A stretch of DNA of 38,061 nucleotides, from NCBI GenBank assembly GCA_027065385.1, contig JAMOOP010000102.1:1-38061 (forward strand), read 5' to 3'. Origin of the DNA: Campylobacteraceae bacterium. Its GTDB lineage: Bacteria; Campylobacterota; Campylobacteria; Campylobacterales; Sulfurovaceae. Position numbers and translations under genes: made by a program. How positions within the stretch are numbered: the first letter of the stretch is position 1; every line of letters begins with the position of its first letter. The notes beneath the pieces are model-generated. The model was not told the origin of the DNA and did not search any database. It saw only the letters and a program-made list of their open reading frames with translations. Below, in pieces: positions 3,664-11,096 of this stretch.

Positions 3664-4728
3664 TTAAACGATTATTGGCATTATAACAGTTATAAATTTT
3701 TTATCCTTTAAAACAAAAGGTAGAGTAGGCTCATTTAATAAAATTTCAAACTCATCTTTCTCTATTTGCGATATAAAGTCTAGTAGATAACGACTATTTA
3801 CATTTAGTTCAAAGTTATTTAGATTAGTATCTATTAGCAATTCAGTTTTTGCTTCTACATTATCAGCTGATAGAGAATTAAAAATTATAGAACCTTTAGT
3901 AAAGATGATTTTTATATCTTGTGATATAGTTATTATTAGTTTAATAGCGTTAATCATCTCTTTTTTAGGAAGTTTTACTATATGCTTTATATCTTTAGGA
4001 ATTATTCGCTCATAGTCAGGAAAATTTCCATTGATTAATCTACTAAAAAAGTAATAATTTCTATTTTGGATAATTATATTAGTTTGGTCATAATATATAT
4101 CTATCTCATTCATAAAAAGTTTTTGAATTTCTAATATAGCCTTTTTAGGAATAATTATTGAAATTTCATTTTGACTAATATTCTCTATAGTAGCTACAGA
4201 CAGTCTTCTAGTATCAGTTCCTACTAATTGGGTTTTATCTTTTTTAATATTCAATAAAGCACCATTTAGTTCAAATTTAGGATTATTGGTATCAATTGAT
4301 GATGATACGGCTCTTAAGGCTCTTATGAGACTAATAGAGTCTAAAGAGATTTTTGATTTATTTTCTATTTGAGGATATTTTGGAAAGCTATTAGGGTTAA
4401 ATATAGGCAATCTAAATTTTGTTTTATTTTGCTTTATATTTAAATTATCTCCTATTAGTTCTAATATTATCTCTTCATTTTTTAAAATTCTAATAATATC
4501 TAGTAGCTTTTTACCATTAGCTGTTATAGCTCCTTCTTGTTCTATTATTATATTTTCTGTTTTTACAATAAGACCTATTTCTGTATCAGTAGCTTTTATT
4601 GTAGCTATACCGTTTTTTGCTTCTATATAGACATGTGATGTAATTTGACTTGCATCTTTTTTTTCTAAAAAAGGTTGCATATTAATTAATATGGACTCGA
4701 TTAAATTTTTTGAAACAACAATTTTCAT
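3664..4728 (-). CDS. dnaN: DNA polymerase III sliding clamp, beta subunit
   Basis: The dimeric ring clamp that tethers DNA polymerase III and many repair enzymes to DNA. The 354-residue product has the three-domain clamp layout: the N-terminal MKIVVSKNLIESILINMQPF, the middle-domain segment containing LVGTDTRRLSVA, and the third-domain end ITVIMPIIV, where clamps usually close with a PMRI/PMxx motif. Length is close to the usual 360-375. The start is supported by an AAGGGAAAA ribosome binding site just upstream. It is separated from dnaA by a 201-nt spacer that contains the DnaA-trio and a DnaA-box array, so initiator binding there could also affect dnaN transcription. Confidence 0.96.
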   Translation of the reverse strand: MKIVVSKNLIESILINMQPFLEKKDASQITSHVYIEAKNGIATIKATDTEIGLIVKTENIIIEQEGAITANGKKLLDIIRILKNEEIILELIGDNLNIKQNKTKFRLPIFNPNSFPKYPQIENKSKISLDSISLIRALRAVSSSIDTNNPKFELNGALLNIKKDKTQLVGTDTRRLSVATIENISQNEISIIIPKKAILEIQKLFMNEIDIYYDQTNIIIQNRNYYFFSRLINGNFPDYERIIPKDIKHIVKLPKKEMINAIKLIITISQDIKIIFTKGSIIFNSLSADNVEAKTELLIDTNLNNFELNVNSRYLLDFISQIEKDEFEILLNEPTLPFVLKDKKFITVIMPIIV

Positions 4729-4740
4729 TTTTTTCCCTTT

Positions 4741-4805
4741 TATGCGATTCTTATTTTTATTTATAAGTAGTAGTAGTAGTAGTACCCCGTGAATAGCGTG
4801 AATAA
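4741..4805 (-). other. Origin unwinding element: DnaA boxes, GC cluster, DnaA-trio and AT-rich DUE
   Basis: Read on the minus strand, two imperfect DnaA boxes (TTATTCACG at 4805-4797 and CTATTCACG at 4796-4788) are followed by the GC cluster GGGG (4788-4785), six consecutive TAC/ACT triplets (4785-4766) and an AT-rich run TTATAAATAAAAATAAG. This is the order of the basal unwinding system described for Bacillus subtilis and proposed in Helicobacter: box, GC cluster, DnaA-trio (3'-GAT-5' repeats on the opposite strand), melted region. Its place between dnaA and dnaN is the expected one. The assignment rests on sequence pattern and position only. Confidence 0.8.
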
Positions 4806-4898
4806 CTTTTTTAAATCCCTAAATCTCGGGCTTTATAGACCCTAAAATATGTGAATAACTATGTGAATAACATGTGAATAACTCAAAGTTATTCACAT
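4788..4898. other. oriC lobe 2: DnaA-box array between dnaA and dnaN
   Basis: Exact DnaA boxes are at 4850-4858, 4862-4870 and 4873-4881 (TGTGAATAA) and 4889-4897 (TTATTCACA). Near matches are at 4788-4796 and 4797-4805. The last two exact boxes sit in a perfect 12-bp inverted repeat, 4872-4883 against 4887-4898, with a 3-nt centre. The form TTATTCACA rather than TTATCCACA is the Campylobacterota consensus. With the lobe upstream of dnaA it makes a bipartite origin, as described for Helicobacter and Campylobacter relatives. This lobe lies next to the unwinding element and probably loads the DnaA filament. Confidence 0.85.
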
Positions 4899-4929
4899 AT
4901 ACTTTGTCTAATTCGATTATAACTTGTTT

Positions 4930-6252
4930 TTAATCAAACTTAGATTTAATTGCGTTTATTTTTGTTGATAATTCATCAATTAATACCTTAAAGTTATCAT
5001 CTACATCTATTAGCTCAATAATTTTTTTAATTGCATGGCTTACTGCTGTGTGGTCTTTCATTCCAAAATAGACAGCAATTTGGGGCATAGAGTTTGGAGT
5101 TAGGTTTCTGGCTAAATATATTGATATTCTTCTAGCTCGTACTACAATACGAGTTCTTTTCTTAGATTTTATATCTGAAAGCTTTATATTTAACTCTTTT
5201 GATACCAACTCCAACACATCATCAATAGATATATTATTCTGTTTTTCAATAAGTTGGTCTTTAATAACATTATGGGCAAATTCAAGAGTTAATTTTTGGT
5301 TCATAAGCCCACTATAGGCATTTAATTTAATAATAGCTCCCTCAATTTCTCGAATATTGCTCCCCATATTAGAGGCTAGAAAGTTAATAATATCGGTGTT
5401 TAGTCTAATTCCATCTATCTCACACTTCTTTTTTATAATAGATATTTTGGTCTCTAATTGAGGAGGTTGAATATCTGCCATTAAACCCCACTCAAAACGG
5501 CTTCTTAGTCTGTCAACTAGACCAGAAATCTTATTTGGTGGTCTATCTGAAGTTATAATAATCTGCTTTTTTGCTTGATGAAGTTCATTAAAAGTGTGAA
5601 AAAATTCCTCTTGTGTCTGCTCTTTTCCACTTAAAAACTGAATATCGTCAATAATAAGCACATCACACTCTCTAAAGTGTTGTCTAAATCTACTCATAGT
5701 TTGTACTCTTAGATGTGAAGTAAATCTATTCATAAACTGTTCAAATGTTGTATATATTACCTTTTTACCTAGTGATATTTGATGGTTTCCAATGGCTTGA
5801 ACTAGGTGAGTTTTTCCTAGCCCAACCCCACCATATAGGAATAGAGGGTTATATATAACACCTGGTTTATCTGCCACACTCTTAGCTGTTGTGTATGCAA
5901 ATTGGTTAGATTGTCCTACAATAAAACTATCAAATGTAAAAGATGGATTTAGTATAGTACTATTTGTTTCATTTCTCTCTTTTCTCTTGCTCTTTTTATT
6001 ACTAGATTTTTTACTATAGGTTGATATTTCAACTTTTGGTTTTATTTTTGTTTCCAACTCAAATAGGTGTGCTATTTGTGGTGAAAATTTTGTTTTAATC
6101 CATTTTGATACTAAGATATTTGGTGCATAAAAGAGTACACTACTCTCTGTTGAGAGCTTATCATCATATATAAGAGGCTTAATATATCGCTCCCAACTCC
6201 TATCGGTCATCTCTTTTTTAAGTTTTTCTATTACTTTTTTTCCTAAATTCAT
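4930..6252 (-). CDS. dnaA: Chromosomal replication initiator DnaA
   Basis: An AAA+ ATPase that binds DnaA boxes, melts oriC and recruits helicase. The 440 residues show domain I (1-70, with WERYIKPL and WIKTKF), a short Lys/Ser-rich linker (about 78-105), then the AAA+ core starting at FTFDSFIVG with Walker A GGVGLGKT (141-148), Walker B VLIIDDIQFLSG, and sensor/arginine-finger segment RLRSRFEWGL. The C-terminal helix-turn-helix carries MKDHTAVSHAIKKI, equivalent to the DnaA signature GxxDHSTVxHA that reads the box. The ribosome binding site AGGAAG precedes the ATG. The gene sits between two arrays of DnaA boxes, which suggests autoregulation. Confidence 0.97.
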   Translation of the reverse strand: MNLGKKVIEKLKKEMTDRSWERYIKPLIYDDKLSTESSVLFYAPNILVSKWIKTKFSPQIAHLFELETKIKPKVEISTYSKKSSNKKSKRKERNETNSTILNPSFTFDSFIVGQSNQFAYTTAKSVADKPGVIYNPLFLYGGVGLGKTHLVQAIGNHQISLGKKVIYTTFEQFMNRFTSHLRVQTMSRFRQHFRECDVLIIDDIQFLSGKEQTQEEFFHTFNELHQAKKQIIITSDRPPNKISGLVDRLRSRFEWGLMADIQPPQLETKISIIKKKCEIDGIRLNTDIINFLASNMGSNIREIEGAIIKLNAYSGLMNQKLTLEFAHNVIKDQLIEKQNNISIDDVLELVSKELNIKLSDIKSKKRTRIVVRARRISIYLARNLTPNSMPQIAVYFGMKDHTAVSHAIKKIIELIDVDDNFKVLIDELSTKINAIKSKFD

Positions 6253-6797
6253 AATCTTCCTAAGTGCGTTTAAGTTTAAATGACTACTACATGTGAATAA
6301 CTATGTGAATAACTTTTTTTGCAAACCTTTCTATTGCCCTAAATCTCGGCGTTTAAAAGCATGTGAAAAAAAGTTATTCACATGTGACAAAATATGTGAA
6401 TAACTTTTTAAAAAACCTTTATAAAGCCCATGGTTTAGGGCTTTTAAAAAAATACCCAACATGTGAATAACTTTTTAAGTTTAGGTATTTCTTAAGCGAA
6501 ACTTAAAAAGTTATTCACATCCCCTTTGAACTTTTTAAATCCCTAAAATTCGGCTTTTAAAAGCTATTAGCTATAAAAAATATTACTTTTATAAAATATA
6601 AAAAAAGTTTATGCTAAGTCACTTAATACTTTTTGATAAAATAGACTATTTTTAACAATTTTAGGCTTAAAATCAGTGAAAAATAGCATATCTTTGGATT
6701 ATATTATAAAAAAGATGTGAATAACATGTGAATAACTTTTGAGTTATTTGAGATTAATTTGTAAATAGAGAGATAGGACAATCTAAATTGTCCTATT
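6253..6797. other. oriC lobe 1: DnaA-box array upstream of dnaA (no gene in this 545-nt spacer)
   Basis: Eight exact DnaA boxes occur: TGTGAATAA at 6292-6300, 6304-6312, 6395-6403, 6462-6470, 6716-6724 and 6727-6735, and TTATTCACA at 6374-6382 and 6511-6519. Degenerate copies lie at 6362-6370 and 6383-6391. Several are arranged as inverted pairs. Interspersed are copies of a second motif, CCCTAAATCTCGGC. A very AT-rich stretch at about 6556-6715 separates the last pair of boxes from the rest. No coding frame, tRNA or other gene was recognised here. The spacer also has to hold the dnaA promoter, which I could not place with confidence. Confidence 0.88.
6461..6520. repeat. Perfect 22-bp inverted repeat carrying two DnaA boxes
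   Basis: The left arm 6461-6482 begins ATGTGAATAACTTTTTAAGT. It is an exact reverse complement of the right arm 6499-6520, with a 16-nt centre (6483-6498). Each arm has a DnaA box at its outer end. It could extrude as a cruciform or hold two DnaA molecules facing each other. Confidence 0.9.
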
Positions 6798-7964
6798 TTA
6801 AATTGCAGATATAGCCTCTTTTTCCATACTTCTATCTTTTTCCCATAATGATTTTAGAAATTTTATAATTTTAATAGATGCTTTTCCATTACCATAAGGG
6901 TTGTGTGCTTGACTCATAACTCTATAGGATAGATTATTATCTAAAAGTATTTGTGCCTCTTTTACTATTTTTTTGGGATTAGTTCCTACAATTTTAACAG
7001 TACCAGCTTCAATAGCTTCAGGTCTTTCTGTTGTATCTCTTATAACAAGTACAGGTTTTCCTAAAGATGGTGCTTCTTCTTGAACTCCTCCACTATCTGT
7101 AATAATAAAATATGATTTACTCATAAGATAGACAAATGCTTCATAAGGTAATGGTTTAATTAGATATATATTTGAGATTTGAGATAAGAGTTTATTAATA
7201 GGTTTTTGAACATTAGGATTTAGATGAACAGGATAGATTATATCTATATTAGGATTATTTAGTGCTAACTCTTTTAGAGCTTTACATATATTAATAAATC
7301 CTTGACCAAAATTTTCTCTACGATGTCCTGTTACTAAAATAAATCTTCTATCTAATTTTAAATCTATTTTATCTAAAATCTTTTTTTCTAACTTTTGATT
7401 TGAATTGATTTTATTAAGAGTAAAAAAGAGTGCATCAATAACAGTATTACCTGTAATAGTAATATTATTAGATTTTTTATTTTCTTTTAATAGATTATTT
7501 CTACTATTTAGAGTTGGTACAAAATGATAATCTGCTAAAATTCCTGTAATTTCTCTATTTGCCTCTTCTGGCCAAGGGCTATATCTATTACCAGTTCTTA
7601 ATCCAGCTTCTACATGTCCTACAGCAATTTTTTGATAGAATGATGCTAAAGATGTAGCACTTGTAGTAGTTGTATCTCCATGAACCAATACTAAATTAGG
7701 TTTAAAATCTTCTAAAACAGCTCTTATTCCTAATAATACATTAGCTGTAATATCATATAAATCTTGACCTGCTTTCATAATATTTAAATCATAAAATGGT
7801 TTTATTTCAAATATATTTAAAACTTGGTCTAACATCTCTCTATGTTGTGCTGTTACACATACCCTTACATGAAAATCATCTTTATACTTTTCAAAAGCTT
7901 TTACTAAAGGAGCCATTTTTATAGCTTCTGGACGAGTTCCAAATACAATTAATATTTTTTTCAT
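6798..7964 (-). CDS. wecB: UDP-N-acetylglucosamine 2-epimerase (non-hydrolysing)
   Basis: Interconverts UDP-GlcNAc and UDP-ManNAc, the entry to ManNAc-containing surface polysaccharides. The 388-residue length is normal. Family motifs in order are [13 protein letters not shown] near the N-terminus, [31 protein letters not shown] with the catalytic acidic residues, [10 protein letters not shown], and [28 protein letters not shown], which binds the nucleotide. A TGATATAAT promoter lies about 36 nt upstream of the ATG (8000-8008, minus strand), so it is transcribed alone, divergently from ruvC. No other polysaccharide gene is next to it, and its end product cannot be told from this window. Confidence 0.93.
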
Positions 7965-8084: not shown

Positions 8085-8564
8085 TTGAAAATATTAGGAA
8101 TAGACCCTGGAACTAGAAATTTAGGTTACTCTATATTAGAGTTAAATAGTGGTAAGATTATATTAGTTGAGGCTGGATTATTAAAGTTTAAAAGTTCTAA
8201 ATTAAAAGAGCAGATGATAGAGTTAGATAAAGGAATAGAACTTATTATAAAAGAGCATAATATTAAAGAGGTAGCTATTGAAGATATATTTTTTGCATTT
8301 AATCCCAAAACAGTTTTAAAACTAGCTCAATTTCGTGGAGCTTTATGTATGAAAATTATTTTAACTATTGGTAATTATAGTGAATATACTCCTCTTCAAG
8401 TAAAAAAGGCTCTTACAGGTAATGGAAAGGCATCTAAAGAGCAAGTGGCATTTATGGTTAAACGACTTTTAGGACTTAAAAAAGATATTAAACCGTTAGA
8501 TATTACAGATGCTATGGCTGTAGCTATTACACATACACAAAGATTAAAATTAAATACTATTTAA
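8085..8564 (+). CDS. ruvC: Crossover junction endodeoxyribonuclease RuvC
   Basis: Resolves Holliday junctions made by RecA and RuvAB, as a dimer in the cytoplasm. The 159-residue length is typical. Catalytic acids are visible: D7 in [14 protein letters not shown], the Glu in [22 protein letters not shown], and the paired Asp near the end in [13 protein letters not shown]. The start is TTG (8085), chosen because it gives the expected [11 protein letters not shown]-terminus and there is no ATG in a better place. A TGATATAAT promoter lies just upstream. The next gene, a SPOR lipoprotein, follows after 59 nt and may be cotranscribed. Confidence 0.95.
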
Positions 8565-9087: not shown

Positions 9088-10056
9088 TTAAAACTTATTC
9101 CCATTTTTATGGTAATCTCCAACTCTTCTACACGCTTGACTTTGTCCTAAATTACATGCTTTTGTAAAATATATAATCGCTTGTTCATCATTTTTTCTAA
9201 CTATATGGTTTTTTGTAGCAAATATTTCACCTAATTTATAACAACCAACTTTACTACCACCCTTACAAGCTTTCTGTGCTGTTTCAAAATCAACTTTACT
9301 GTTAATTTGGGTAATAGACTCTAGTTTATTACAACTTGCTATATCATCAAGGTCACAAGCTCTACTAAAGAACTGTTCAGCTTTTGCTTTATCTTTAGTT
9401 ACTCCAAATGAACCATTTTCATACATATTTCCAAGATTATTACAACCTGATGCTTCACCGTATTGACACGCATCTGTATATAGTGATATAGCCTCAAATA
9501 TATCTTTTCTAACATGAATACCATGAGCGTACATATATGCTAAATCATTACACCCTGCACCAACTCCTTTATCACACACTTTTTCAAAAAGTTGTTTTGC
9601 TCTATATTTACTAGCTTTTGTACCCTCTCCATGATAATACATAGAACCTAAATTATAACACCCCATTAAGTTTCCAAGTTTACATGATTTTTTATATAGT
9701 CCAAAAGCTATACCGTTATGTTTATCTGTGCCTTTACCATTGTTGTATAAATAAGCTAGGTTATTACACGCTACTGCATTATCTAAATCACACGCTTTTT
9801 TATAATACTCTTTTGCATATTCATAATCAATAGATACATCTTTTGTTCCATGGTCATATATTTTTCCAAGTTCATTACATGCACTGCTATCTTGTAAATC
9901 ACATGCTTTTTTATAATAGGTTACATAATCAGCATCTGTTAATGTATCAAGCCCTGTTGTTTTTGTTATAAGATGTCTATTACTTATTCCAATTAAAATT
10001 AATCCTAAGACGACTATTGTTGTAATAATTCCAAGAGTTGAGTTTATTCTTCCCAT
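9088..10056 (-). CDS. Cysteine-rich Sel1-repeat (Hcp-like) protein, membrane-anchored
   Basis: The 322-residue product has one N-terminal hydrophobic segment (about residues 8-26, GIITTIVVLGLILIGI) followed by eight Sel1-like repeats of about 36 residues. Each has the pattern YYKKACDLxxxxACNxLGxxYxxG with a C-x7-C pair, sixteen cysteines in all. This is the disulfide-stapled repeat layout of Helicobacter cysteine-rich Hcp proteins, which are periplasmic or secreted and have been linked to peptidoglycan or beta-lactam binding. The anchor may be an uncleaved signal or an inefficient signal peptide. Repeat 6 lacks the usual loop and is the most divergent. Substrate unknown. It is transcribed alone and ends at the hairpin shared with the SPOR gene. 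Confidence 0.85.
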   Translation of the reverse strand: MGRINSTLGIITTIVVLGLILIGISNRHLITKTTGLDTLTDADYVTYYKKACDLQDSSACNELGKIYDHGTKDVSIDYEYAKEYYKKACDLDNAVACNNLAYLYNNGKGTDKHNGIAFGLYKKSCKLGNLMGCYNLGSMYYHGEGTKASKYRAKQLFEKVCDKGVGAGCNDLAYMYAHGIHVRKDIFEAISLYTDACQYGEASGCNNLGNMYENGSFGVTKDKAKAEQFFSRACDLDDIASCNKLESITQINSKVDFETAQKACKGGSKVGCYKLGEIFATKNHIVRKNDEQAIIYFTKACNLGQSQACRRVGDYHKNGNKF

Positions 10057-10379
10057 TTTATAATCCTTTTTAATATAAAAGAATATCTCTTTTTCTTTAA
10101 TGTGTCAAGATTAAAATAAGATTTTAGTATATATAAAATAAAAATTAAGTTTTTATACTAATAATTTTTTTTAAAAAAATGACATCAAATAATTTAATAA
10201 AACATATAAAATTAAATAATAATCCCGTTTAACACCCCATAATATAAGGAGTTGAAAAAATAAAAAAAATATATTTTTTCTTAAGAAAACCACAATAAAA
10301 CCACAAAATCAATGATATACTTATTAATAATAAAAATAAAAAATATATAAAAAATACCTAAAAGAAGGGAATTAAAATC
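10057..10379. promoter_or_regulatory. 323-nt divergent intergenic region, no gene
   Basis: This AT-rich spacer separates the Sel1 gene (minus) from the NlpC/P60 gene (plus). No coding frame or RNA gene was recognised. It holds an 11-bp tandem direct repeat (10286-10307) and a -10 box (10313-10321) for the rightward gene; the rest is poly-A/T-rich and not explained. Confidence 0.5.
10286..10321 (+). promoter_or_regulatory. Tandem 11-bp direct repeat and promoter of the NlpC/P60 gene
   Basis: AAAACCACAAT (10286-10296) is followed directly by AAAACCACAAA (10297-10307). The extended -10 TGATATACT (10313-10321) begins five bases later, so the repeats cover the usual -35 position. Head-to-tail sites one helical turn apart are typical of OmpR/PhoB-type response regulators acting as activators; the regulator is not known. 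Confidence 0.5.
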
Positions 10380-11096
10380 ATGAAAACAGCTATATTAACA
10401 ACAATATTTTTATCATCTTTAACATTTTTCAATGGATGTTCAGATACTTCACCAAAACCAAATAAAAAATTAGCAAAAGAGTCTCTATCTGTTTATAATA
10501 TTATGGGAATAAAAGAGCCAACTAAACAGAGTTCTCTTTTTGTTGTAAAAGAGGATACTACACCAAAATATAACTTTATAATAACTAATAGTGGAAATTA
10601 TCAAGAGGAGTTTATACCTGTTTCTGATAACATTGAGGTTGTATCTTATGCCTCATATAGACCACAAACTTATAGAGATACAGATATGCTTATTAATAGC
10701 ATTGAAGCAAATGCTAAAAGTTTTTTAGGAACAAAATATGTATGGGGTGCAACAGGTCCTACTAAATTTGATTGTTCTGGATTTACTCAATGGGTATATC
10801 GTGATGTAGGAATAAATATTCCAAGAGTCTCTCGTGACCAAGCAAGAGTTGGAAACTATATAAGTTATAATAATTTAAGAAGAGGCGATATGGTCTTTTT
10901 TGATACTAAAAAACATAAAAAAGGTATTGTAACTCATGTTGGAATATATTTAGGAAATGGGAATTTTATACATGCAAGTTCTGCAGCTAAAAAAGTTGTA
11001 GTATATAATTTTAATGATAAACCTTATTATAAAGAGAGATTTTTATGGGGAAGAAGAGTTGTTCAAGATAGTCCATATTATGCATCAAGCTATTAG
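10380..11096 (+). CDS. NlpC/P60 family endopeptidase lipoprotein (copy 1)
   Basis: A predicted lipoprotein peptidase that cuts peptidoglycan stem peptides. Residues 1-20 form a lipoprotein signal ending FFNGC (Cys20). A low-complexity linker of about 90 residues follows, then a C-terminal NlpC/P60 domain (about 108-232) with the catalytic Cys132 in FDCSGFTQWVY, His186 in VTHVGIYLG and His198 in FIHASS. All three active-site positions are present, so it should be active. AGAAGGGA precedes the ATG. It is about 55% identical by eye over the catalytic domain to the lipoprotein at 21374-22129, so the two are paralogues. Family members usually cleave D-Glu to meso-DAP bonds; specificity here is inferred. 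Confidence 0.88.
   Translation: MKTAILTTIFLSSLTFFNGCSDTSPKPNKKLAKESLSVYNIMGIKEPTKQSSLFVVKEDTTPKYNFIITNSGNYQEEFIPVSDNIEVVSYASYRPQTYRDTDMLINSIEANAKSFLGTKYVWGATGPTKFDCSGFTQWVYRDVGINIPRVSRDQARVGNYISYNNLRRGDMVFFDTKKHKKGIVTHVGIYLGNGNFIHASSAAKKVVVYNFNDKPYYKERFLWGRRVVQDSPYYASSY

Follow-up and report, generated by a model that had tools for sequence, protein, structure and literature searches.

Replication origins consisting of two lobes around dnaA have been described in Helicobacter, Arcobacter, Wolinella and Sulfurimonas (PMC5043019; this and the following publications are cited from excerpts), and the arrangement oriC1-dnaA-oriC2 with unwinding in oriC2 was shown experimentally in three Campylobacterota (PMC5043019). 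In DnaA-trio systems, a pair of DnaA boxes is followed by a GC-rich spacer, the trios and an AT-rich DNA unwinding element (DUE) (PMC8235120, PMC8287927), and in oriC2 of Helicobacter pylori the trio is needed for unwinding (PMC8235120). The reason for the split of some origins is described as unknown in the excerpts cited (PMC6052347, PMC4285127). Among the literature matches listed, titles and abstract openings named neither Sulfurovum origins nor natural cases in which dnaA has left the space between the lobes.

Here, we describe a window of 38,061 bases (the whole stretch of DNA that was analysed) from an assembly of 2.66 Mb in 175 contigs. As the relatives found via DnaA include named Sulfurovum records, its source is labelled Sulfurovum-like. 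Judged from the sequence, positions 4729-6740 are very probably the chromosomal oriC of this Campylobacterota bacterium and of the known bipartite oriC1-dnaA-oriC2 type, with a mechanism that we infer. This assignment follows from 12 exact DnaA boxes against 0.85 expected, which are half of the 24 in the assembly, from the domains of DnaA, the presence of HobA, an R1 box with a trio, the matching oriC2 of the relative G015 and the GC-skew minimum of the relative G036, and from the published relatives with oriC1-dnaA-oriC2 and oriC2 unwinding (PMC5043019) and with the H. pylori trio (PMC8235120).

Gene context and DnaA boxes

In the window, dnaA (440 aa; 4930..6252, minus strand) is followed by dnaN (354 aa; 3664..4728, minus strand), both assigned by Pfam, and past dnaN by pyrG and recJ, both named by eye. 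DnaA carries the N-terminal, AAA+ and C-terminal DNA-binding domains (Pfam), and the assembly also encodes HobA, which is the DnaA partner in Campylobacterota. Upstream of dnaA, the intergenic space of oriC1 with eight exact boxes extends over 545 bp to the next gene, that of a UDP-GlcNAc 2-epimerase (6798..7964, minus strand; Pfam), an atypical neighbour which separates oriC1 from ruvC (8085-8564; named by eye and by matching relatives), so that ruvC is not directly upstream of oriC1. In 51 of 63 locus rows ruvC was found upstream on the opposite strand, and several of the other 12 have dnaA at a contig edge; ruvC upstream of oriC1 is the usual context and not a functional requirement.

Twelve exact boxes of the form TTATTCACA had been predicted, eight upstream of dnaA (6292-6735) and four between dnaA and dnaN (4850-4897), and all of them were recovered at these places. 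The window contains exactly these 12, whereas dinucleotide shuffles of it gave a mean of 0.85 and a maximum of 3 exact boxes. With the rate taken from the shuffles, Poisson probabilities of ~5e-14 for four boxes in 48 bp and ~2e-21 for eight boxes in 444 bp were obtained. The other 12 exact boxes of the whole assembly are scattered singly without a cluster, and a reversed control pattern occurs 64 times in the assembly. One-mismatch boxes showed no enrichment across the whole window (25 found versus 23.7 expected), leaving only the exact form as informative. Degenerate boxes, also part of the original prediction, were present when a relaxed pattern was applied, two in oriC1 and two in oriC2; the box core in the window is TTCAC.

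The core of oriC1 (6289..6412, minus strand) contains the boxes 6292(-), 6304(-), 6374(+) and 6395(-), and is followed by a middle part (6456..6520) with 6462(-) and 6511(+) and by an outer pair (6716..6735, minus strand) of 6716(-) and 6727(-), 11 bp apart; the degenerate boxes of this lobe (relaxed pattern) are located at 6362-6370 and 6675-6683. Relative to the box at 6395 and in the direction of dnaA, the exact boxes stand at -332 and -321 (+,+), -116 (-), -67 (+), 0 (+), 21 (-), 91 (+) and 103 (+). A promoter-like TTCACA-18-TATAAT at 6703-6732 (minus strand) points toward dnaA, with its first hexamer inside the outer DnaA box; promoter-like sites were not in excess in the window (20 found versus 21.9 expected).

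oriC2 and the probable unwinding element

The oriC2 cluster (4850..4897) comprises the boxes 4850(-), 4862(-), 4873(-) and 4889(+). On the minus strand toward dnaN, a degenerate, R1-type DUE-proximal box TTATTCACG (4797..4805) is followed by a degenerate box CTATTCACG adjoining the trio (4788..4796), by the short G-rich spacer GGG leading from box to trio (4785..4787), by a DnaA-trio in the form of a perfect (TAC)6 on the strand of dnaA (4767..4784), and by an AT-rich stretch up to the start of dnaN (4729..4766), the probable DUE from its sequence and from its position as in Campylobacterota oriC2 (PMC5043019). The sequence features of a DnaA-trio/BUS element are found here, namely two boxes, a short GC-rich spacer, at least three trios and the right polarity. 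From this order, melting would be expected in oriC2, and as the unwinding element sits in oriC2, this is taken as the opening lobe and oriC1 as the accessory lobe. The unwinding element with its trio (4729-4805) had been overlooked in the original prediction, whose span is correct for the boxes but stopped at 4788, whereas the functional origin probably reaches about 4729. With a TCAC core required at a distance of 18-27 bp from a TAC-like run, an R1-like box plus trio was detected in 78 of 95 locus entries, with some genomes entered twice. As a point against the assignment as oriC, (TAC)n is not unique to the origin, and a longer run exists elsewhere in the assembly. This longer perfect TAC repeat (G000:C17, L156, about C17:12608-12634) lies in a long coding frame and represents a trinucleotide microsatellite apart from the origin.

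Comparison with described origins

The predicted two-lobe origin of the Helicobacter type agrees with the locus in position, TTCAC core, box orientation and dnaA-dnaN order; clusters of DnaA boxes on both sides of dnaA with dnaN next to them, as define a bipartite oriC, were found. With Sulfurimonas denitrificans, Arcobacter butzleri and Wolinella succinogenes, the window shares oriC1 upstream and oriC2 downstream of dnaA, dnaN as next gene and the TTCAC core, as well as a DUE-proximal box pointing to the DUE and a distal oriC2 box in the opposite orientation (PMC5043019). Its 12 exact and 4 degenerate predicted boxes compare with 8-10 footprinted boxes in these species (PMC5043019), from which, as far as the excerpt describes them, it differs by oriC1 boxes spread over about 445 bp and by the epimerase gene before ruvC. 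H. pylori likewise has two lobes around dnaA and a GC-rich spacer plus DnaA-trio by the last oriC2 box (PMC8235120), but its ts1/ts2 boxes differ from those of the window, where the trio is a perfect (TAC)6, and the excerpt of PMC6052347 places its dnaA between punB and comH, without ruvC as upstream neighbour. The incAB-dnaA-incC origin of Bacillus subtilis with its BUS also shows two lobes, paired boxes, a GC spacer and a trio (PMC8235120, PMC8287927), but this organism belongs to a different phylum and has a different box consensus, and the layout is likened by description without implying homology.

Box richness, conserved spacing and GC skew

Exact boxes near dnaA were counted in the window and 29 relatives (900 bp upstream and 600 bp downstream of dnaA, as contigs allow), and six or more were present in 9 of these 30 loci: the window (12), G019 (9), G011 (6), G007 (6), G003 (8), G027 (17), G016 (17), G001 (6 within range) and G013 (18, including two within the end of dnaA). 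A survey of 63 rows combined 60 loci found via DnaA with three added as known to be box-rich (window, G016, G027) and is biased in this respect; 56 of the 60 loci were usable after omission of L087, L100, L083 and L085, where dnaA abuts the edge of its contig and upstream counts were meaningless, and boxes may be undercounted in truncated rows close to a contig end (e.g. L059, L075). More than five exact boxes up to dnaN were detected in two of the 56 usable loci (25 in G013 and 11 in G001), the three chosen loci having 12 (window), 15 (G027) and 17 (G016). The window is box-rich but not alone, and its origin is a further box-rich case of the known Campylobacterota bipartite oriC, with a clear trio element. 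The upstream lobe had been called unusually rich and long; it is indeed long and rich, but its richness is shared by several other members of the genus. In relatives at 74-77% DnaA identity, the upstream space is for the most part about 110 bp long and contains 1-3 exact boxes.

From -67 onward, oriC1 has counterparts in G015, G013 and G001 whose box positions agree to within 2 bp, the minus box of G015 being TTATTCACG, and a pair similar to the outer one is present in G013. In oriC2, the spacing of 0, 16, 27 and 39 with R1 at 92 is identical in the window and G015, and both sequences share 84% identity over 184 bp. The 124-bp oriC1 core of the window is 84% identical to that of G001 and 80% to that of G013 over nearly the full length, the respective DnaA proteins being 70-72% identical. 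With 74%, the core is less similar to that of G015 than to those of G001 and G013, against the DnaA and PyrG trees and with G015 as the nearest relative by DnaA.

The local skew of the window was noisy; it became steadily positive no earlier than about 10 kb, which is some 3 kb beyond the origin, and returned to negative values around 15-18 kb and 28-36 kb. The support from skew is that of a relative and not of the window organism: for G036, a family-level relative with a main contig of 1.46 Mb sampled in 40 pieces of 20 kb, the cumulative GC-skew minimum fell on the piece at 73-93 kb and the next sampled piece, from 109.5 kb, was positive, with dnaA at 107.7-109.0 kb. The skew maximum fell on the piece starting at 1.13 Mb, which is about 1.04 Mb away from the minimum and not opposite to it; the replichores look unequal, or the assembly order looks off.

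Relatives with dnaA outside the lobes

In the three metagenome assemblies (MAGs) G001, G013 and G015, the lobes are separated by about 274-330 bp and dnaA does not lie between them. G001 and G013 show the order ruvC (divergent)-dnaA-oriC1-oriC2-dnaN-pyrG-recJ on single contigs, which places the oriC1 module downstream of dnaA. No box was detected in the ruvC-dnaA space of either, the relaxed pattern included, nor any TTATTCACN box in the dnaA upstream region of any of the three. G013 carries a tandem array of 13.8 copies of a 21-bp unit, each with one DnaA box, which starts inside the dnaA 3' end (L031, G013:C29, about 9606-9894; L024, 1202-1490). Its period spaces the boxes about two helical turns apart, which is also the arrangement of plasmid iterons.

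In G015, both lobes are found at the end of contig C40, separated by 274 bp, as a box-rich origin of adjoining lobes (L038, about 9344-10498). Its sole detected dnaA and dnaN are located on contig C113, where 11 bp separate them, boxes are absent, and a peptidase gene and a pseudouridine synthase gene are their neighbours. About 20 bp within the last 50 bases of its pyrG contig C46 (L039) resemble the dnaN 3' end, and the original locus may contain a remnant of dnaN, or a second copy may lie in an assembly gap. The last part of the G015 spacer aligns with the dnaA 3' end of the window and runs straight into oriC2; none of 200 dinucleotide shuffles scored as high against the window dnaA end, and 1 of 200 against the own dnaA of G015. 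One frame of this spacer reads FKLFIDNFFTKIN, to be set beside FKVLIDELSTKIN of DnaA, and a protein-level search of the spacer led to no clear dnaA remnant. Apparently, a decayed dnaA 3' end touches oriC2 in G015. Eight comparisons of the G013 and G001 spacers revealed no clear dnaA remnant, the best of them (G001 versus G015 dnaA) being reached by 7 of 200 shuffles.

The window and G015 were joined in the DnaA and PyrG trees (100/100 in both), as were G013 and G001 (100/100 for DnaA, 100/99 for PyrG), and the two pairs were kept apart, with starred branches in the PyrG tree forcing two changes. As both trees keep the pairs apart, two separate events of dnaA displacement are indicated, and at least in the G015 lineage dnaA was, to judge by these sequences, lost from between the lobes.

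Proposed mechanism and alternatives

For initiation, DnaA would occupy the cluster in oriC2 (4850-4897) together with the R1-type boxes (4788-4805); its filament would then grow past the GGG spacer, reach the single-stranded (TAC)6 trio and melt the AT-rich DUE in front of dnaN. As accessory lobe, the 8-box oriC1 would gather DnaA, could join the oriC2 complex by DnaA-DnaA contacts, thereby looping dnaA out, and may repress dnaA. Such looping is possible, as published for relatives, but probably optional, since in three relatives no dnaA intervenes between the homologous lobes.

It is rather unlikely that only oriC2 works as origin, which would then be monopartite, and that the boxes upstream of dnaA function in its autoregulation and in DnaA titration. 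Of the two lobes, only oriC2 contains the unwinding element, and oriC2 together with DnaA was sufficient for unwinding in vitro in relatives (PMC5043019). Campylobacter jejuni, which shares the working lobe between dnaA and dnaN, has an oriC reported as probably monopartite (PMC6052347), and an exact box is found 26-27 bp before the dnaA start in 20 of 30 loci. However, displacement of dnaA in G001, G013 and G015 left the oriC1 module beside oriC2 with its spacing kept, and because boxes are absent upstream of the displaced dnaA while oriC1 is kept, a role in the origin fits better than a role in the dnaA promoter. Less probable still is an essential function of dnaA looping between the lobes in initiation: loops joining the lobes were seen by electron microscopy in about 25-30% of DnaA-bound plasmids from three Campylobacterota (PMC5043019), but the three relatives have lobes about 274-330 bp apart without dnaA between them, where contact could be made over a shorter loop. 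Similarly improbable is an origin of the rearranged loci from metagenome assembly errors. All three are MAGs, the origin, pyrG and dnaA-dnaN of G015 lie on three contigs, and the dnaN-like 3' end by its pyrG points to a remnant or to a second copy missing from the assembly; yet G001 and G013 are separate assemblies of sister lineages with the same order on single contigs, and in G015 the origin sequence runs uninterrupted through both lobes, with a dnaA-like 3' remnant still in place. A titration site for DnaA (comparable to datA) with the true origin elsewhere, as might be suggested by the many exact boxes and the 21-bp tandem box array of G013, is highly improbable in view of the R1 box, trio and AT-rich stretch in order, the dnaA-dnaN context, the skew minimum at dnaA in G036 (40 sampled pieces) and the lack of a cluster among the other 12 exact boxes of the assembly.

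For the bipartite oriC1-dnaA-oriC2 origin that we prefer, the lobes might tentatively be regarded as a self-contained cassette of fixed geometry with an optional intervening gene, dnaA having left the space between them in two independent lineages (G015; G013 with G001), with looping dispensable and control shifted to titration; we consider this plausible, if somewhat short of probable. If true, adjoining lobes would work over a spacer of about 0.3 kb with 11-15% G+C, the relocated dnaA would have lost its upstream boxes, and initiation control would move from autoregulation to DnaA titration, in the extreme in G013 with its tandem 21-bp box array. The value beyond the known type is that relatives keep the lobes together while dnaA leaves, by which the split of origins becomes testable. 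The window with lobes 1.4 kb apart and dnaA between them and its nearest relative G015 with about 0.27 kb form a natural pair, which bears on the intervening gene, the loop and the dnaA-promoter boxes in initiation control.

Palindromes and terminator-like sites

An imperfect palindrome AAATCCC-N8-GGGCTTT lies between the box cluster and the R1 box (4813..4834). The pattern AAA-N-CCC-N8-GGG-N-TTT was found in the window at 4813-4834, 6423-6444 and 6537-6558, and without mismatch at 9 distinct sites in the assembly, 3 of these in the window origin. It is also present on the G000 contigs C91, C94, C105 and C136, of which C91 and C136 each contain three copies within 200 bp, one of each three being mismatched; the copies on C136 are near an ORF that resembles Cas2 by eye. 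As the pattern is dispersed in the assembly, the palindrome is enriched in the origin yet not specific to it. A hairpin or terminator was rejected, as the arms do not covary (0.531 complementary versus 0.564 between sequences) and 4888 of 5000 shuffles scored as high, in a set of 14 sequences hand-picked and hand-trimmed from 63 distinct rows, which left out rows not aligning without gaps or more distant. Terminator-like sites in the window numbered 5 versus 0.9 expected, one of them being the inverted box pair at 4872-4898.
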